NCBI GenBank assembly: GCA_012728235.1
Contig: JAAYFL010000086.1
Span: 1-52,407 of the forward strand
Direction of reading: 5' to 3'
Source: Synergistaceae bacterium
GTDB lineage: Bacteria > Synergistota > Synergistia > Synergistales > Synergistaceae
Length of the DNA: 52,407 nucleotides
The notes beneath the pieces are model-generated. The model was not told the DNA's origin, did no database searches, and saw only the letters and a program-made list of their open reading frames with translations. This document shows positions 5,041-46,245 of the stretch, piece by piece (position 1 is the first letter of the stretch; each line of letters begins with the position of its first letter). Made by a program: the position numbers and the translations under genes.

Positions 5041-5335
5041 CAAAAATACCCCGCCCCCTGTGACAGAGGACGGGGTATAGCAACCCGCGGTACCACCTCA
5101 ATTTGACGGTGCCTCACGACAACGTCCTTACTGAGTACATTGTCTTAATAGACTTAGACTCATTTGCTATTACGGGCAAACCCGGCACAATTTAATCAGC
5201 CAAGACCTTTCACTGTGCTGCTCAAGGGATGTATTCAGATAACCAAGTTTATTGTCTCGCACCAGCCGACAACTCTCTGAAAAACTTTTAGAGATCGTAC
5301 TTCTTCCCCATCATTGCATTTATTCTGTATATCTC
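5041..5335 (-). promoter_or_regulatory. T-box riboswitch, specifier UAC (tyrosine), upstream of the CoA ligase
   Basis: Read on the minus strand, the T-box core GGTGGTACCGCGG occupies about 5097-5085. A GC-rich hairpin (5078-5046) followed by five Ts (5046-5042) forms the intrinsic terminator. Stem I shows the loop E partners AGTA (5301-5298) and GAA (5236-5234). The triplet immediately after GAA is TAC (5233-5231), so the specifier reads as tyrosine. Stem I is supported by pairing of AAGTTT with AAACTT, and the distal GGCTGGTGCGAG segment is typical. In this class, uncharged tRNA pairs with specifier and T-box and lets transcription through. The coding region starts about 50 bases after the terminator. 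Confidence 0.9.
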
Positions 5336-5690: not shown

Positions 5691-5766
5691 TCCTCGATGG
5701 CGCAATCGGCAGCGCGGGTGGCTGTTAACCACTAGGTTCGAGGTTCGAGTCCTCGTCGAGGAGCCA
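5691..5766 (+). tRNA. tRNA-Asn (anticodon GTT)
   Basis: A complete cloverleaf can be drawn. The acceptor arms TCCTCGA (5691-5697) and TCGAGGA (5756-5762) pair perfectly, followed by discriminator G and an encoded CCA. The anticodon loop is CTGTTAA with anticodon GTT, closed by GGTGG and CCACT. The T loop is GTTCGAGTC-like, and the D arm is GCGCAATCGGCAGCGC. It is a single tRNA gene with its own promoter and terminator. Confidence 0.96.
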
Positions 5767-22466: not shown

Positions 22467-23321
22467 TCAAAGTATGGATAGTATAAGTTCACGGATAACC
22501 TTACATGCGGTCACCGTTGAAACTCCACTAGAGTCATAGTGAGGAGAAAGTTCATTTATATCGCAGCCGACAATATTTAATTTCCCAACTTTGTGGACAG
22601 CTCTTATTAAATCATCAAAAGAAACTCCCCCTGGCTCCGGAGTCCCAGTTCCAGAAAAAACAGACGGGTCTAAAACGTCTAAGTCTATAGTTAAATAAAC
22701 AGGCTTATCCTCAAGAGAGGCTATAACGTTATCAATGGTGGCTAAATCATATTTTCTCTGTATAACGTTTTTCTCCGCCCATATATCTTCATCTTTTGTC
22801 ATAGAACGTATTCCAAATTGAAAGATTTTTCCGTCATTCAGCAATTCAAAACAACGCCTTATAACCGTAGCATGAGAAAGGGTTTCTCCAATATAATCAT
22901 CACGCAAATCAGCATGAGCATCAAAATGAACCATGTTTAAATTGGGATATTTTTTGACCACTGCTCTTACCGAACCAAGGGTCACAAGATGCTCTCCACC
23001 CATCATTAAAGGAATTTTATTATCTGATATAATTTTTTGCGACATTTCTTCAATTTGTGATAGCACTTTTTTTGTATTTCCCATTGGGAATTCCAAATCT
23101 CCTGCATCGAAAACAGGTACATCTTCAAGATCTTTTTTAAGATTTGGAGAGTAAGTTTCTATACCAAAAGATTCGGCTCGTATTGCAGTAGGAGCAAATC
23201 TAGAACCAGGTCTATAGCTTGAAGTGCCATCAAATGGAGCTCCAAATAAAACAAGCTTTGATTCATCATAACTATTTTCACAAGCCATGAAAGGCAAAAA
23301 GTTTCTATTCAACTGCGACAC
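22467..23321 (-). CDS. speB: Agmatinase (ureohydrolase)
   Basis: The 284-residue binuclear manganese ureohydrolase hydrolyses agmatine to putrescine and urea. The metal ligands are visible in GGEHLVTLGS, VHFDAHADLRDDY and TIDLDVLDPSVFSGTGTPEPGG. It is the last gene of speD-speA-speE-speB and overlaps speE by 17 bases. Arginase and formiminoglutamase share the fold; the arginine decarboxylase in the same operon favours agmatinase. Confidence 0.92.
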   Translation of the reverse strand: MSQLNRNFLPFMACENSYDESKLVLFGAPFDGTSSYRPGSRFAPTAIRAESFGIETYSPNLKKDLEDVPVFDAGDLEFPMGNTKKVLSQIEEMSQKIISDNKIPLMMGGEHLVTLGSVRAVVKKYPNLNMVHFDAHADLRDDYIGETLSHATVIRRCFELLNDGKIFQFGIRSMTKDEDIWAEKNVIQRKYDLATIDNVIASLEDKPVYLTIDLDVLDPSVFSGTGTPEPGGVSFDDLIRAVHKVGKLNIVGCDINELSPHYDSSGVSTVTACKVIRELILSIL

Positions 23322-24162
23322 TCTCCAACAGTTCTTTTACATAATTTGGGAGAGCAAAGCAGCCTAAGTGCAAGTCAGTGTTATAGTATTTTGTTTTTAA
23401 ATTAAAATCATGCCACACAATTGGATTAAAATCTTTAATAGGATCTTTCTTCTTTGAGGCAAAACCAAACAACCAATGACCGGAAGGGTATGTTGGAATA
23501 TGCGCTTGATACACACGGGCTATCGGGAAGAAATCTCTTATTTTCTTGTGAGCGCTCTTCATTGAACGAGCAAAATCAGTATAGTATGGACATTCATGCT
23601 GATTCACAAGAATTCCATCTTCTGTGAGGGCCTTAAAACAGTTGCCATAAAATTCTTTCGTAAAAAGACCCTCTCCAGGACCAAAAGGGTCCGTACTATC
23701 TACAATTATAAGATCATATTTCTCAACTTTATTGCGGACAAACTTCAACCCATCTTCGTAAAAAAGAGTAACTCTCGGGTCCGACAATTTTGAGGCAGTT
23801 TGCGGAATATATTTGACACAAGCATCCACAACCATCTTGTCAATCTCGACCATGTCTATGCTTTTTATTGAGGGATATCGAGTAAGTTCGCGCACCGTAC
23901 CACCATCGCCACCGCCTATAACGAGCACGTTATTTATATTTGGGTTCGTGGCCAAAGGCACGTGAACAATCATATCGTGGTATATGAATTCATCTTTCTC
24001 CGTCAGCATCATTAAACCATCAAGAGTTAAAAATCTTCCAAATTCTTCAGAATCGAATATATCTATCCTTTGAAATTCGCTTTTCTCCGAATAGATTTGC
24101 TTATTGACCCGGATTGAGAATTTTATATCATCTGTGTGATTTTCTGTATACCAAAGTTCCAT
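23305..24162 (-). CDS. speE: Spermidine synthase (polyamine aminopropyltransferase)
   Basis: The 285-residue enzyme transfers the aminopropyl group of decarboxylated SAM to putrescine. The family motif VIGGGDGGTVRELTRYPS is present, followed by the MVEID segment and the catalytic aspartate region IIVDSTDPFGPGEGLF. It starts 2 bases after the speA stop and overlaps speB, so translation is coupled. With SpeD and SpeA/SpeB it completes arginine to spermidine. Confidence 0.95.
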   Translation of the reverse strand: MELWYTENHTDDIKFSIRVNKQIYSEKSEFQRIDIFDSEEFGRFLTLDGLMMLTEKDEFIYHDMIVHVPLATNPNINNVLVIGGGDGGTVRELTRYPSIKSIDMVEIDKMVVDACVKYIPQTASKLSDPRVTLFYEDGLKFVRNKVEKYDLIIVDSTDPFGPGEGLFTKEFYGNCFKALTEDGILVNQHECPYYTDFARSMKSAHKKIRDFFPIARVYQAHIPTYPSGHWLFGFASKKKDPIKDFNPIVWHDFNLKTKYYNTDLHLGCFALPNYVKELLESVAVE

Positions 24163-24164
24163 CT

Positions 24165-25610
24165 CTATTCCTCCAAAGTTTCAATATTCTTCATAGTAAT
24201 ATCTCTAGTCCCCATCATTGCACAACCTTTTTCTTTAGCATATCGCACATACTCTATTATTTCATTTGTAATGAGTTCTCCGGGAGCTAGAATTGGAATT
24301 CCGGGAGGATACGCCATAATAAGTTCTGCACTGACACGCCCTGCACACTTCTCTATAGGAAACGTGCGCTTTGCGGCATAAAACGCTTTCTGTGGAGAAG
24401 TAACTAAAATTGGCTCAATATATTCATGCTCCAACATATTCATAGGTTTTTTTCTAAAGCGACGGTAAATTTCAGAGAGAGCTCCCAATAGTCGCTCTAT
24501 CTCCAACTCTCGATCGCCCACTGATATTATCGCCAAAATATTCCCTATGTCACCAAATTCTATTTGTATCCCAAATTCATCGCGAAGAAGATCATAGACT
24601 TCAATTCCAGCCAACCCCATCGCTCGTGTGTGAATGCTTAATTTCGTTTTATCAAATGCAAAAGCTGTATCACCATTAATTATTTCGCTGCTAAAAGCTT
24701 TAAACCCGCCAATTTTATTTATTTCAGCTCTTGCATATTCAGCAAAGGCACTTACTTTTTTAAATATTTCTTTTCCATTTAAAAAGAGATTTTTTCTTGC
24801 AATATCAAGAGAAATCATCAAAAGATAGCTTCCGCTTGTGGTCTGAGTTAGATTAATAGTCTGTCTCATAGCTTCAGCATCAACCTTGTCTCCAATAAGC
24901 AACATGGAGCTTTGGGTTAAAGAACCTCCGGTTTTATGGACGCTTATTGCAGAAATATCGGCTCCGGCATCCATGGCAGATAAAGGCATATCTTCTCCAA
25001 AATAAAAATGGGTGCCATGCGCCTCATCCACTATAACCAACATTCCTGCAGAGTGTGCTACTTTTACTATCTCTTTGAGGTTGCTACAAACTCCATAATA
25101 TGTCGGATTATTTACAAAAACTGCTTTGGCACTTGGATTTTCTCTAATTGCATTTTTAATATCTTCTACCGACATCCCCAAACTGATACCAAGTTCAGGG
25201 TTAACCCCGGGATTTATATACACTGGTTCGGCACCACATATCACCATCGCATTAATAACACTTTTATGAACATTGCGAGGTAATATAATTTTATCGCCTT
25301 TTCCACAGCAATAAAATATCATGTTTTGCACCGCTGCGGTCGTTCCGTTTAACATAAAAAACGCATGTTCGGCTCTGAAAGCTTCCGCCGCTAATTCTTC
25401 CGCTCGTCGAATAGCTCCTGTAGGATGAGTAAGATTATCAAGAGGTTTGCTGGAATTGAGATCCATTGAGACGCACTGTTTGCCAAAAGCATCAATTAGC
25501 GCCTTATGTCCTTTGCCCTGCTTATGTCCCGGCACATCGAAAGAAACGATCCTATTCTCTATATATTGCCTTACAGCGTCATATATAGGCGTCTCTTCTT
25601 GTTTACTCAT
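24165..25610 (-). CDS. speA: PLP-dependent arginine decarboxylase (fold type I, Orn/Lys/Arg decarboxylase family)
   Basis: The 481-residue enzyme belongs to the short, single-domain members of the fold type I amino acid decarboxylases. The PLP lysine is in SVHKTGGSLTQSS, preceded by VDEAHGTHFYFG with the PLP-binding aspartate, and the C-terminal part carries YPPGIPILAPGE. The operon with agmatinase points to arginine as substrate; lysine or ornithine cannot be excluded from sequence. The start is the ATG at 25610, which overlaps the speD stop by 8 bases (ATGAGTAA); a TTG at 25628 is an alternative. Confidence 0.88.
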   Translation of the reverse strand: MSKQEETPIYDAVRQYIENRIVSFDVPGHKQGKGHKALIDAFGKQCVSMDLNSSKPLDNLTHPTGAIRRAEELAAEAFRAEHAFFMLNGTTAAVQNMIFYCCGKGDKIILPRNVHKSVINAMVICGAEPVYINPGVNPELGISLGMSVEDIKNAIRENPSAKAVFVNNPTYYGVCSNLKEIVKVAHSAGMLVIVDEAHGTHFYFGEDMPLSAMDAGADISAISVHKTGGSLTQSSMLLIGDKVDAEAMRQTINLTQTTSGSYLLMISLDIARKNLFLNGKEIFKKVSAFAEYARAEINKIGGFKAFSSEIINGDTAFAFDKTKLSIHTRAMGLAGIEVYDLLRDEFGIQIEFGDIGNILAIISVGDRELEIERLLGALSEIYRRFRKKPMNMLEHEYIEPILVTSPQKAFYAAKRTFPIEKCAGRVSAELIMAYPPGIPILAPGELITNEIIEYVRYAKEKGCAMMGTRDITMKNIETLEE

Positions 25611-26421
25611 ATATGTTTTGACCGGCAAAAATCTCTATCATTTCTCTACGAAGCATTTCTGTAATTTTAAGACGTTCTTTCGGACCGAACTCATGAACAT
25701 CATTATTAAACAAATAATTTTGTAGAGAAAGTTCTTTTATTAACATATTTGTATGAAAAACATTTATTTGATAAACATTAGTGTCTTGTGCATCATATTT
25801 TGCCAGAGTATTAGGATCTATAAAATCTTGGATTGAAGTTATTTTATGATCAATAAAGCATTTGCGGCCCCCCATTTCACGAGTAAATCCGCGAACACGA
25901 TAATCTATTGTTATGATGTCAGAATCAAAACTTCCTATTAGATAGTCTAGCGTGCGCAAAGGAGATATTTTCCCGCATGTCGACACGTCAATATCAACTC
26001 TAAAGGTTGAAATGTCTTGATTGGGATGGAACTCAGGGTATGTGTGTACAGTAAGGTGGCTTTTATCAAGATGTCCGCAAACAGTCTCCCTTTTGGAAAG
26101 AACATCATAGCCGCCATTACATGATTCATCTAAATCTTTTTCATTAACGGGCATTTCTGCGATAAGAACGGTAACACTTGCTCCCTGCGGCTCATAATTT
26201 TGTTTTGATATATTAAGAACATGAGCGCCTATCATAGAAGTAACATCGCAAAGTATCTTGGTTAAGCGCTCTGCGTTATATTGTTCATTTATATAAGCAA
26301 CATACTCATTTTTGGCCCTTTCTGTTTTTGCGTAGCAAACATCATAAATATTAAAACTTAATGTTTTTGTAAGGTTATTAAACCCGTATAACTTAATTTT
26401 TTCATTAATTAATTCTGACAT
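25603..26421 (-). CDS. speD: S-adenosylmethionine decarboxylase proenzyme
   Basis: The 272-residue proenzyme has the length of the E. coli-type SpeD rather than the short Gram-positive/archaeal type. Self-cleavage at the serine in DKSHLTVHTYPE would create the pyruvoyl cofactor, and the CGHLD and DVSTCGKISPL regions are conserved. It makes decarboxylated SAM for spermidine synthase. AAAGGAG is 6 bases before the ATG. It is the first gene of the spe operon, directly behind a terminator hairpin and an upstream structured RNA. Confidence 0.94.
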   Translation of the reverse strand: MSELINEKIKLYGFNNLTKTLSFNIYDVCYAKTERAKNEYVAYINEQYNAERLTKILCDVTSMIGAHVLNISKQNYEPQGASVTVLIAEMPVNEKDLDESCNGGYDVLSKRETVCGHLDKSHLTVHTYPEFHPNQDISTFRVDIDVSTCGKISPLRTLDYLIGSFDSDIITIDYRVRGFTREMGGRKCFIDHKITSIQDFIDPNTLAKYDAQDTNVYQINVFHTNMLIKELSLQNYLFNNDVHEFGPKERLKITEMLRREMIEIFAGQNIYE

Positions 26422-26461
26422 TTTGGTCTCCTTTCTAAACAGCTTCCTCCTGTATTGTACG

Positions 26462-26508
26462 AAAAAACAACCACTTGTAACTACATACTAGCAGTCACAA
26501 GTGGTTGT
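26462..26508 (-). terminator. Terminator hairpin 40 bases upstream of speD
   Basis: A perfect 12-bp stem on the minus strand (26508-26497 with 26478-26467), an 18-base loop and six Ts (26467-26462) form a textbook intrinsic terminator. It lies between the structured RNA and the speD ribosome binding site. It either ends the structured RNA or acts as an attenuator of the spe operon. Confidence 0.85.
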
Positions 26509-26579
26509 ACTTGATTATGATCTCTACGTTATTTGTTTAATGTTTTAGCAAATATAGGTAGTTTATTTGAGCCTATACA

Positions 26580-26850
26580 GTAATAAATTACTTTTACTGC
26601 TCATGTCGACCATTCACAAGTACTACAACTTATGAACACAACTTCCGCGGATTCTTCCCGCTGTAAAATTTGAGCTTTCGCTCATCAACACGATATCACA
26701 ATCGCTAGTTCGGCATTTGACCGGGCTGTCCGTATGCCCTTACTTCACCGTTTATACGGGTTAGGTCAATAAAACTAAATGCATAAAATAGTTTGTGATG
26801 ATAGGCTGAAAAAACTATATTAACTAACTCATACTATCACAGTGTGTTTT
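26580..26850 (-). ncRNA. Structured RNA of uncertain class (decayed group II intron domain I, or spe operon leader)
   Basis: This coding-free segment is GC-richer than its flanks and packed with complementary arms. On the minus strand TTGACC (26769-26764) pairs with GGTCAA (26722-26717). Inside it, CCGTAT (26759-26754) pairs with ATACGG (26735-26730). Next come a GNRA hairpin, TGAGC-GAAA-GCTCA (26684-26671), a GCGG/CCGC hairpin (26661-26647), and a 9-bp stem TTCATAAGT/ACTTGTGAA (26636-26613). The motif order recalls domain I of bacterial group II introns, including an EBS1-like terminal stem. I see no domain V, no clear GUGYG 5' end and no reverse transcriptase. A regulatory leader of speDAEB is the alternative. 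That it is a structured RNA is fairly firm; its identity is not. Confidence 0.5.
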
Positions 26851-26866
26851 TAACACATATAAAGAA

Positions 26867-26896
26867 AATATACAAGTGAAACTTACATAATTTCAA
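26867..26896 (-). promoter_or_regulatory. Candidate promoter for the structured RNA / spe leader
   Basis: On the minus strand TTGAAA (26896-26891) and TATATT (26872-26867) are 18 bases apart, placing a start near 26860, just upstream of the structured region. Confidence 0.4.
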
Positions 26897-26942
26897 AACT
26901 TATAAAATACAGAGCAAAGATATTTCTTGTTAAGGGTCTTGT

Positions 26943-28532
26943 TTAACTTATAGGATACGCCTCCGGATCAAACTGGTCCTGTCGTCCCACATCAACTTTA
27001 TTCTCTCGTGCATATTTATTAGGAATAAAATCTTTGGCAATCTGCGGGAACAGAACATAACTTAATATATCTTCCGGCTGTGTTGCAAAATGGCCTATCT
27101 CCTTACGTGCATTCTCCAGTTCAGGAGCTATGTTCTCTCCAGGTCTATTGGAAATAGGCTTCTCATCACCAAGGACTTTCTTCTGAATATCAGGATCAAC
27201 AGGCGCCGGAGTTTTCCCGTAGTATCCAAGAAAATACTGTTTTACTTCCTTGGGAACAACACTCCAACGTTCGCCGGAAATAACATTTATCGTAGCCTGG
27301 GTACCAACTATCTGACTTGTAGGAGTTACAAGGGGAGGATATCCCATCTCTTTACGAACTCTGGGAACTTCTTCCATAACAGCTTTAAATTTATCAAAAG
27401 CATTGCTCTCTTTTAGCTGACTCTGGAGATTTGAATACATGCCCCCTGGAATCTGGTAGAGCAATATATTTACATCAACCCCACTAATTCCCATAATAAC
27501 ATTTTCATATTTTTTCTTTAAGCCTTCATAGTATTCAGAAACAGGCAATAGTTTTTCAAGCGAAAGCCCTGTGTCAAGAGGTCCTCCCTGAAGAGCAGCT
27601 ACAATCGTCTCTGTCGCCGGTTGGCTTGTTCCCATTGCGAAAGGAGAAATAGCACAATCAACTATGTCCGCTCCTGCCTCAAGAGCAGCCAAATATGTCA
27701 TTGCCGCCATACCGCTTGTGTAATGGCTGTGTATTTGAAGCGGAAGATCTACTTCTTTTTTTATAGCTTTTACTAAAGATGTAGCTGCAACAGGAGACAA
27801 AAGCCCGGCCATATCTTTTATACAGATAGAATCCGCTCCCATTCCTGCCATCTCTTTAGCTTGCTTAGCAAAAAGATCCAATGTATGGACCGGTGAGATG
27901 GTATAGGATATCGTCATCTGAAGCTGCCCGCCCTCTTTTTTAACAGCCTCTGCTGCAACTGACATATTGCGAGTATCATTCAAAGCATCAAAGACACGTA
28001 TTATATCTATGCCGTTTCCTACCGCATATTTTATGAATTCACGTACTACCTCATCCGAATAATGTCTATAGCCAACAACATTTTGTCCGCGTAAGAGCAT
28101 CTGTGTTTTTGTTTTTTTAAGGCGCTTTCTAAGAAGTCGTAGCCTCTCCCATGGGTCTTCATTCAAAAAACGCATACATGTATCAAATGTAGCGCCTCCC
28201 CACATCTCTATAGAGTGGTAACCTATTTCATCCATAGCTTCGGCAATGGGAAGCATATCATCTGTACGCAATCTTGTTGCCATTAAGGATTGGTGCGCAT
28301 CGCGGAATCCTGTTTCCATGATTCCAACCTTAGGCCTCATCTTTTCTACAATCTTTTCTTCTGGTGATTTTTCCTTTACAGAAAAGACTGCTTCCACGGC
28401 GGCAATAGGTGCAGATCCTTTTTTCACTTCTTTTTCTTTTCGTTCTTCGGCCTCTGCCTGTGTCATTATTTTTGTTGCTATTACACGACCATTGCTATCT
28501 TTTATTTCATACTTAACATTTTCATTTTTCAT
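26943..28532 (-). CDS. Carboxyltransferase subunit of oxaloacetate decarboxylase / pyruvate carboxylase (OadA/PycB), without a biotin domain
   Basis: The 529-residue protein carries the DRE-TIM carboxyltransferase domain, with METGFRDAHQS, the metal-ligand QIHSHYTSGMA and SICIKDMAGLL, then the conserved PycB_OADA helical domain (PGGMYSNLQSQL). It interconverts oxaloacetate and pyruvate using carboxybiotin. The protein ends at DPEAYPIS with no MKM biotin attachment motif, and its first ~65 residues are a charged extension not seen in classic OadA. The biotin carrier must be a separate protein. It starts 6 bases after nifJ, so both act on pyruvate from one transcript. Decarboxylase versus carboxylase cannot be decided here. 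Confidence 0.88.
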   Translation of the reverse strand: MKNENVKYEIKDSNGRVIATKIMTQAEAEERKEKEVKKGSAPIAAVEAVFSVKEKSPEEKIVEKMRPKVGIMETGFRDAHQSLMATRLRTDDMLPIAEAMDEIGYHSIEMWGGATFDTCMRFLNEDPWERLRLLRKRLKKTKTQMLLRGQNVVGYRHYSDEVVREFIKYAVGNGIDIIRVFDALNDTRNMSVAAEAVKKEGGQLQMTISYTISPVHTLDLFAKQAKEMAGMGADSICIKDMAGLLSPVAATSLVKAIKKEVDLPLQIHSHYTSGMAAMTYLAALEAGADIVDCAISPFAMGTSQPATETIVAALQGGPLDTGLSLEKLLPVSEYYEGLKKKYENVIMGISGVDVNILLYQIPGGMYSNLQSQLKESNAFDKFKAVMEEVPRVRKEMGYPPLVTPTSQIVGTQATINVISGERWSVVPKEVKQYFLGYYGKTPAPVDPDIQKKVLGDEKPISNRPGENIAPELENARKEIGHFATQPEDILSYVLFPQIAKDFIPNKYARENKVDVGRQDQFDPEAYPIS

Positions 28533-46021: not shown

Positions 46022-46245
46022 CATGGCCTCCTCATAATTTGTTCATAGCCTGAAGTGTGCCATTCGAAGGAGGGTTGACATGGCGAGACTCCTTTAGAGC
46101 ACGCCACATTGGCAATCCGAACCTCTTTCCACAATGGGAGACGGAACTGTTTCCTATTCCGCCCTAACGGCTTTTTCTCCATAGCAAGTGCCTTAGAAAA
46201 AAAAGCTTCAAGGTCTATGACGGTGGATGCTGCAATACATCCGTT
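46022..46245 (-). promoter_or_regulatory. Moco/Tuco-type riboswitch controlling tupABC
   Basis: On the minus strand the leader contains the Moco-core pattern AGGGCGGAA, a hairpin closed by CGGAA/TTCCG, then CTCCCATTGTGGAAAG and a GGTTCGGATTGCC tail. This parallels the E. coli moaA leader in order and spacing as I recall it. Upstream is a GGATG/CATCC hairpin near the probable 5' end; a TAATAT -10 lies at 46254-46249. Downstream, CCTCCT (46073-46068) can pair with the tupA ribosome binding site AGGAGG (46032-46027), and TGGCG/CGCCA forms a further hairpin (about 46106-46079). Regulation therefore looks translational. Whether molybdenum or tungsten cofactor is sensed is unknown; the transporter suggests tungsten. 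Confidence 0.75.

Follow-up and report, generated by a model that had tools for sequence, protein, structure and literature searches.

In almost all cells, polyamines occur bound to RNA. Lysine and cobalamin riboswitches are large RNAs in which a multihelix aptamer is followed by a switching terminator. In the literature searched, only one polyamine riboswitch class is established, a spermidine riboswitch derived from SAM-I, and its authors state that more polyamine classes must exist (PMC10853860). That riboswitch has a SAM-I-type four-stem aptamer, precedes speE, speB, speD, and ldcC, and acts as an OFF switch by transcription termination, using a terminator and an antiterminator (PMC10853860). 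Two further RNAs are linked to polyamines: the odc1 motif, consisting of a pseudoknot domain and a uORF, and the potE motif, a weak candidate located some 200 nt from its gene (PMC8632094). In pneumococcus, the sRNA F59 (SN20, srn235, Spd_sr49) lies between SP0915 and SP0916, is ~318 nt long, and is described as an RNA of undecided function or, as a guess, an FMN sensor (PMC2887815, PMC3395615, PMC12323649); a promoter and a rho-independent terminator have been reported for the transcript (PMC2887815). The product of SP_0916 is an arginine decarboxylase (PMC7531197).

We analyzed a contig of 52,407 nt from a Synergistaceae bacterium (GenBank assembly GCA_012728235.1, contig JAAYFL010000086.1; hereafter, the window) and characterized a leader RNA upstream of its polyamine genes. 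The leader lies on the minus strand, with the conserved core at 26768–26568 and the terminator at 26508–26467, followed by speD, speA/ldc, speE, and speB (Table 1). We read it as a cis-acting, transcription-terminating riboswitch for feedback control of polyamine synthesis, with spermidine, or at any rate a polyamine, as the likeliest ligand, and give the spermidine reading a probability of roughly 0.6. The RNA occurs once in this genome. The 520 bases upstream of speD contained no open reading frame of 80 codons or more, and the region 26900–26440, folded as a minus-strand transcript of 461 nt, reached −132.9 kcal/mol (z −5.26), a value that none of 100 shuffles equaled. A terminator scan returned just the one site, against 0.3 expected, 45 nt from the speD start at 26421. 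The original prediction, which left the strand unstated, had described a coding-free, strongly folded leader with a terminator shortly before a speDAEB operon, and on all these points it proved correct. Its claim that the leader has its own promoter is plausible: clear −35/−10 pairs are found at the corresponding place in several relatives (TTGCAC..TATAAT in L092 and TTGACA..TATAAT in L100), but the candidate in the window is weak, and the number of promoter-like sites in the window scan was not significantly above expectation (5 vs. 2.5 ± 1.6).

Table 1. Features of the leader RNA and the downstream operon in the window (w/, paired with)
Feature	Position	Strand	Description or support
Conserved core with P1–P4 (candidate aptamer)	26568..26768	−	R1 78.7 bits, E 2.9e-19; covariation
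Part covered by RF02440 SpF59_sRNA	26710..26768	−	50.1 bits, cut-off 37.2
P1	26718..26768 (26768-26764 w/ 26722-26718)	−	UGACC/GGUCA; encloses variable hairpin and P1b
P1b	26739-26736 w/ 26726-26723	−	GGGC/GCCC; loop AUACGGACA, nearly invariant
Unpaired GCCG after P1	26711..26714	−	identical in 72/72 distinct members
P2 hairpin	26691..26704	−	CGAU/AUCG, loop UGUGAU
P3	26604..26690 (26690-26685 w/ 26609-26604)	−	UGUUGA/UCGACA; encloses P3a, GC-rich hairpin, P3b
P3a	26684-26680 w/ 26675-26671	−	
GC-rich hairpin within P3	26661-26647	−	
P3b	26637-26628 w/ 26621-26612	−	GUUCAUAAGU/ACUUGUGAAU
P4	26603-26599 w/ 26572-26568	−	UGAGC/GCUCA
P4b	26598-26594 w/ 26583-26579	−	conserved bulge UAUAG in P4/P4b region 26568..26603
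Strand common to P3b and antiterminator	26617..26623	−	GUACUUG, complementary to CAAGUAC 26513-26507
Antiterminator 3′ strands	26507..26522	−	GAUCAU 26522-26517 (partner AUGGUC 26613-26608), CAAGUAC 26513-26507 (partner GUACUUG)
Intrinsic terminator	26467..26508	−	18 bp, then U-run; terminator scan and comparison across members
Possible promoter	26848..26875	−	TTGTAT-16-TTAAAA; location taken from relatives; weak, no significance in the consensus scan
speD, adenosylmethionine decarboxylase, first gene under the proposed control	25603..26421	−	TIGR03331 415.9 bits, cut-off 255.8
Orn/Lys/Arg decarboxylase (speA/ldcC type)	24165..25628	−	PF01276 264.3 bits
speE, spermidine synthase	23305..24162	−	TIGR00417 315.6 bits
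speB, agmatinase	22467..23321	−	TIGR01230 296.4 bits

The only Rfam match here at the curated threshold was RF02440 (SpF59_sRNA, "ldcC RNA"), which aligned over its whole model (1–54 of 54). The original prediction had placed the RNA in no known family, and this above-threshold match shows otherwise; what stands is that the family has no established function and that its model covers about one-quarter of the RNA. When relatives found with RF02440 were compared side by side, conservation extended ~140 nt past the 3′ end of the model, and the 54 nt represent only the 5′ quarter of an RNA of ~200 nt. Helices P2, P3, P3a, P3b, and P4 lie outside the model, as does a pseudoknot present in most members. 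By sequence and structure, RF02440 and the window RNA are one family, and both stand directly before polyamine decarboxylase or synthesis genes; in Rfam, however, the entry is 54 nt long and typed "Gene; sRNA," whereas conservation spans ~200 nt and suggests a leader acting in cis. Its position before polyamine genes favors a cis-acting leader over an sRNA. Judging by names and position, RF02440 probably corresponds to F59/SN20/srn235/Spd_sr49, and the pneumococcal RF02440 RNA directly precedes the polyamine decarboxylase gene SP_0916. In the literature searched, outside of which lay most subscription journals and all of bioRxiv, we found no account of the full ~200-nt RNA and no paper that calls RF02440 a riboswitch.

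To define the family, RF02440 was searched against genomes of four phyla, giving matches in 8 of 151 Synergistota genomes (the window's phylum; the near relative L001 is named Synergistaceae), 17 of 398 Bacillota genomes (the phylum of a Paenibacillus genome), 2 of 100 genomes in the phylum of a Brachyspira (Spirochaetota), and 7 of 51 genomes in the phylum of a Mucispirillum MAG (Deferribacterota). A Lactococcus lactis genome used as a control matched RF02440 as well. An alignment of 14 Bacillota and Deferribacterota members (A1) was made with plain MAFFT, with the structure not used, and the covariance model R1 built from it has 200 positions and 56 pairs and contains no Synergistota or Brachyspira sequence. 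R1 nevertheless matched the window over positions 1–200 of 200 (Table 1), and it found matches in 43 of 87 genomes of one family, 24 of 398 Bacillota genomes, and 15 of 188 genomes of the window's phylum. In total, we collected 86 members from Synergistota, Bacillota, Spirochaetota, and Deferribacterota. At 76 other speD loci, R1 gave no match below E 2 (best E 2.4; some of the contigs lack the upstream region), so most speD loci are without this RNA and we rejected the idea of a general speD regulator. We likewise rejected phage-borne copies, as the 12 viral-contig matches to GGCCATACGGACAGCC carried none of the remaining conserved motifs and seem to be fortuitous.

Leaders of the Synergistota type also occur in genomes assigned to other groups. 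L191, from a genome drawn as Bacillota (G232), carries a Synergistota-type leader in which AUCACAA and UUGUGAU are kept and P1 has diverged, pointing to either horizontal transfer or misbinning. The leader of L002, from a MAG labeled Oscillospiraceae (STF2_151), is also of the Synergistota type and precedes a speD 80% identical to that of the window; the label may be wrong. Two members from the Brachyspira phylum (L090 and L110) combine a Synergistota-type leader and a shortened P3 region with the same CAAGUAC beside the terminator, which suggests transfer between phyla.

The covariation test suggested in the original prediction was positive, and the leader holds a conserved, covarying, aptamer-like structure. 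In the structure-free alignment A1, 94.4% of the cells pair, and 14 pairs have changed on both sides, compared with 4.8 ± 1.4 in shuffled data (0 of 500 shuffles as many); sliding the partners by one to three columns lowers the pairing to 32–46%. Among the 72 distinct members, two-sided changes were seen at 26 of 56 pairs and in 244 cells, again matched by 0 of 500 shuffles, although this alignment was made to the model and leans toward the model's structure. The outer pair of P1 varies among UA, GC, and CG across members and the pairs of P1b among GC, AU, and GU. In total, 59 columns are at least 95% identical, and these include unpaired ones: the loop of P1b, the GCCG following P1, and the UAUAG bulge of P4. 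The GNRA hairpin pointed out in the original prediction (GAGC-GAAA-GCUC, 26683–26672) is incidental, as relatives have UUAA, CAGA, AUCA, UUGA, or AGCA in the loop.

The pattern of conservation also bears on the idea that the genes are attenuated through translation of a short leader peptide. Some polyamine operons elsewhere are under leader-ORF control; here, however, conservation tracks base pairs, and no short open reading frame with a ribosome-binding-like sequence was common in place or sequence among ten members. We rejected this reading, to which we give hardly any weight. The original prediction had further raised a 3′-truncated group II intron reduced to domain I, possibly co-opted, citing a resemblance in short motifs, and nothing else speaks for it. 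Group II intron models gave no match up to E 10 in 26400–26960, and none reached the curated threshold anywhere in the window. The genome holds one copy, and, in contrast to a mobile element, the same complete element stays ahead of polyamine genes from one phylum to another. A group II relic was accordingly rejected, and its chance of being right is next to nil.

Beyond the core, the loop of P2 is complementary to the sequence AUCACAA in the 5′ flank (26799–26793), and the two may form a kissing contact; both are invariant in near relatives. In members of the Bacillota/Deferribacterota type, a pseudoknot (P0/P4) joins the bases immediately 5′ of P1 to the strand that separates the two arms of P4. 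Across 50 distinct members, the energy of this pairing was −9.97 for the RNA's own strands and −7.52 ± 0.30 for permuted ones (0 of 10,000 permutations as low, common descent being ignored). For the 14 members of the window's type, the corresponding values were −2.99 and −3.16, and we rejected the pseudoknot for this type as its own energy was no better than the permuted one.

Comparison with known riboswitches placed the RNA outside the classes considered. SAM families gave no match to the window RNA up to E 10, and SAM-I, cobalamin, lysine, and other known classes were rejected for lack of an Rfam match, in agreement with the original prediction. Compared with the SAM-I-derived spermidine riboswitch, the window RNA has different helices and different invariant bases; the two share the kinds of genes they precede, this RNA being associated with polyamine genes in 84 of 86 members, and the transcription termination reported for that riboswitch is proposed for this RNA too. 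The window RNA would work like that riboswitch, yet it is not a member of its class. Lysine and cobalamin riboswitches resemble it in size and in having a multihelix aptamer with a switching terminator but control other genes. The odc1 and potE motifs were set apart by their descriptions alone. Elsewhere in the window, on the minus strand, we observed a T-box leader (RF00230, 121.2 bits) at 5063–5323, away from the speD leader and with a tRNA nearby on the plus strand (5691–5763), and a molybdenum/tungsten cofactor riboswitch motif (RF01055, 62.8 bits) at 46107–46224. RF00230 gave no match at the speD leader itself.

A terminator is found before the first gene in most members outside Deferribacterota. 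The 3′ strand of P3b consists of variable bases followed by CUUGUG and is complementary to the region of the terminator 5′ arm, where CAAG or CAGG is present in 49 of 53 distinct cases; the strand therefore has two possible partners, the 5′ strand of P3b and the terminator arm. The mean duplex energy of this strand with its own terminator arm was −10.19 kcal/mol, compared with −7.79 ± 0.28 for arms permuted among members (0 of 10,000 as low, in a test that ignores common descent), −5.06 for shuffled arms, and −4.93 for random 15-mers of the same RNA. The automatic terminator finder was doubtful in ten to twelve loci, and these were left out of the counts on duplex energies and antiterminator folding. 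In the window, a transcript ending at 26491, with the 5′ arm of the terminator just made, folds into the antiterminator (−72.2 kcal/mol vs. −64.9 with the aptamer enforced), while the complete leader folds as aptamer and terminator. In equilibrium folding, only 18 of 58 members had an antiterminator above 0.5 at the decisive stage, and among near relatives the antiterminator dominated in the window and in L087 but not in the others; in Synergistota-type members, the 7-bp antiterminator helix and the terminator stem have only 2 nt in common. Competition between an aptamer strand and the terminator arm is supported across members by complementarity, with weak folding support in many.

We propose that, when spermidine is plentiful, the ~200-nt RNA would bind it and keep its conserved fold, presumably with no protein partner. 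In this state, P3b would occupy the strand ending in ACUUGUG, the terminator before speD would form, and transcription would stop. With spermidine scarce, the ACUUGUG strand would pair with the CAAG-type sequence in or beside the 5′ arm of the terminator, and this antiterminator pairing would hinder the terminator so that speD, speA, speE, and speB are transcribed. In this scheme, ligand binding, the identity of the ligand, and the direction of the switch are predictions; the analysis itself shows the structure and its covariation, the spread of the RNA, its gene association, the terminators, and the alternative pairing.

Some leaders depart from this arrangement. Those of the Mucispirillum phylum (L089, L111, L112, L114, L115, and L116) are without the P2 hairpin, and no convincing terminator was found in the Deferribacterota leaders; a G-rich run immediately ahead of the start codon is possibly sequestered instead, and these leaders may act on translation. 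Two truncated members before speD, L190 (1501–1707) and L192 (1501–1678), have no P1–P2 sensor part but still keep the ACUUGUG strand, P4, and the terminator, and are possibly natural unregulated versions.

The genes behind the RNA were studied across all members. In 84 of 86, the RNA directly precedes, on the same strand, speD, an Orn/Lys/Arg decarboxylase gene, or a carboxynorspermidine-synthase-like gene. For the first 73 members, the nearest downstream gene was speD in 56, the decarboxylase in 9, the synthase-like dehydrogenase in 6, and an M28-type lipoprotein peptidase in 2, and for the 13 later members, speD in 7 and the decarboxylase in 6. A constant position before speD, suggested as a check in the original prediction, was thus found in part: speD is the commonest neighbor but shares this place with the other genes. 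We call the dehydrogenase "synthase-like" because it scores 418 bits, below the NCBIfam carboxynorspermidine synthase cut-off of 800; in both of the two operons checked, the following gene is nspC above cut-off. The sole members not before a polyamine gene are L164 and L168 (L171, L170), where the next gene encodes an M28-peptidase-like lipoprotein with a PA domain.

This gene context bears on a trans-acting sRNA, for which the terminated leader would itself be the product and base-pair with other messages. F59/SN20/srn235 is listed in several pneumococcal screens, and a review reports a lung phenotype (PMC3395615, PMC4387999), but such screens list TPP and T-box leaders as sRNAs too. Since members from four phyla almost all lie immediately ahead of polyamine genes and in the same orientation, and since a terminator arm matched to an aptamer strand is needless for action in trans, we regard a trans-acting sRNA as very unlikely.

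The choice of spermidine as the signal follows from the two routes behind the RNA. In the carboxyspermidine route, putrescine and aspartate semialdehyde are the starting materials for spermidine, and no decarboxylated SAM is needed. Because both spermidine routes stand behind the same RNA, spermidine is a likelier signal than SAM, decarboxylated SAM, or MTA. The polyamine part of the "polyamine/SAM-responsive attenuator" in the original prediction is hence well supported, by the covariation, the gene context, and the complementary terminator arm, while a response to SAM is unlikely, as members also precede a route independent of SAM. The structural, genomic, and terminator evidence would fit equally a cis-acting attenuator of polyamine genes that uses the same terminator and antiterminator and responds to another signal, either a different small molecule common to these pathways (putrescine, agmatine, carboxyspermidine, or spermine) or a protein that binds the RNA. 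Putrescine, too, is common to both spermidine routes. End-product feedback is nevertheless the simplest logic, and known protein-binding sites in RNA usually need less than ~200 nt with many invariant unpaired bases; we consider another signal rather unlikely.

For spermidine feedback, a polyamine OFF switch implies that loss of polyamine import should raise the operon behind the RNA. In pneumococcus, deletion of potABCD lowered the cellular polyamines and raised speA (SP_0916) 16.9-fold and speE 14.4-fold in qRT-PCR, a rise that was absent from the study's own RNA-seq data (PMC8540371). An inhibitor of polyamine import raised the SPD0809–SPD0815 genes 1.4- to 1.9-fold, and DFMO lowered some of them (PMC10887117). 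These studies were not designed around the leader, and their data fit in part with a polyamine OFF switch.

More tentatively, and at somewhat below even odds, we suggest that the RNA represents a second class of spermidine riboswitch, structurally unrelated to the SAM-I variant, that is present in at least four phyla, controls both spermidine routes, and has been concealed in Rfam behind a 54-nt streptococcal sRNA. In that reading, it would have two architectures, a Bacillota/Deferribacterota type that the P0/P4 pseudoknot closes and a Synergistota/Brachyspira type, including the window, without it. With its defined core, its two structural subtypes, and a mechanism testable in vitro, the RNA is a ready candidate for a further polyamine riboswitch class, and this assignment would correct a database entry that now reads "sRNA of unknown function." The RNA could also account for the way in which bacteria that use different spermidine routes, probably streptococci among them, throttle synthesis when polyamines can be imported.
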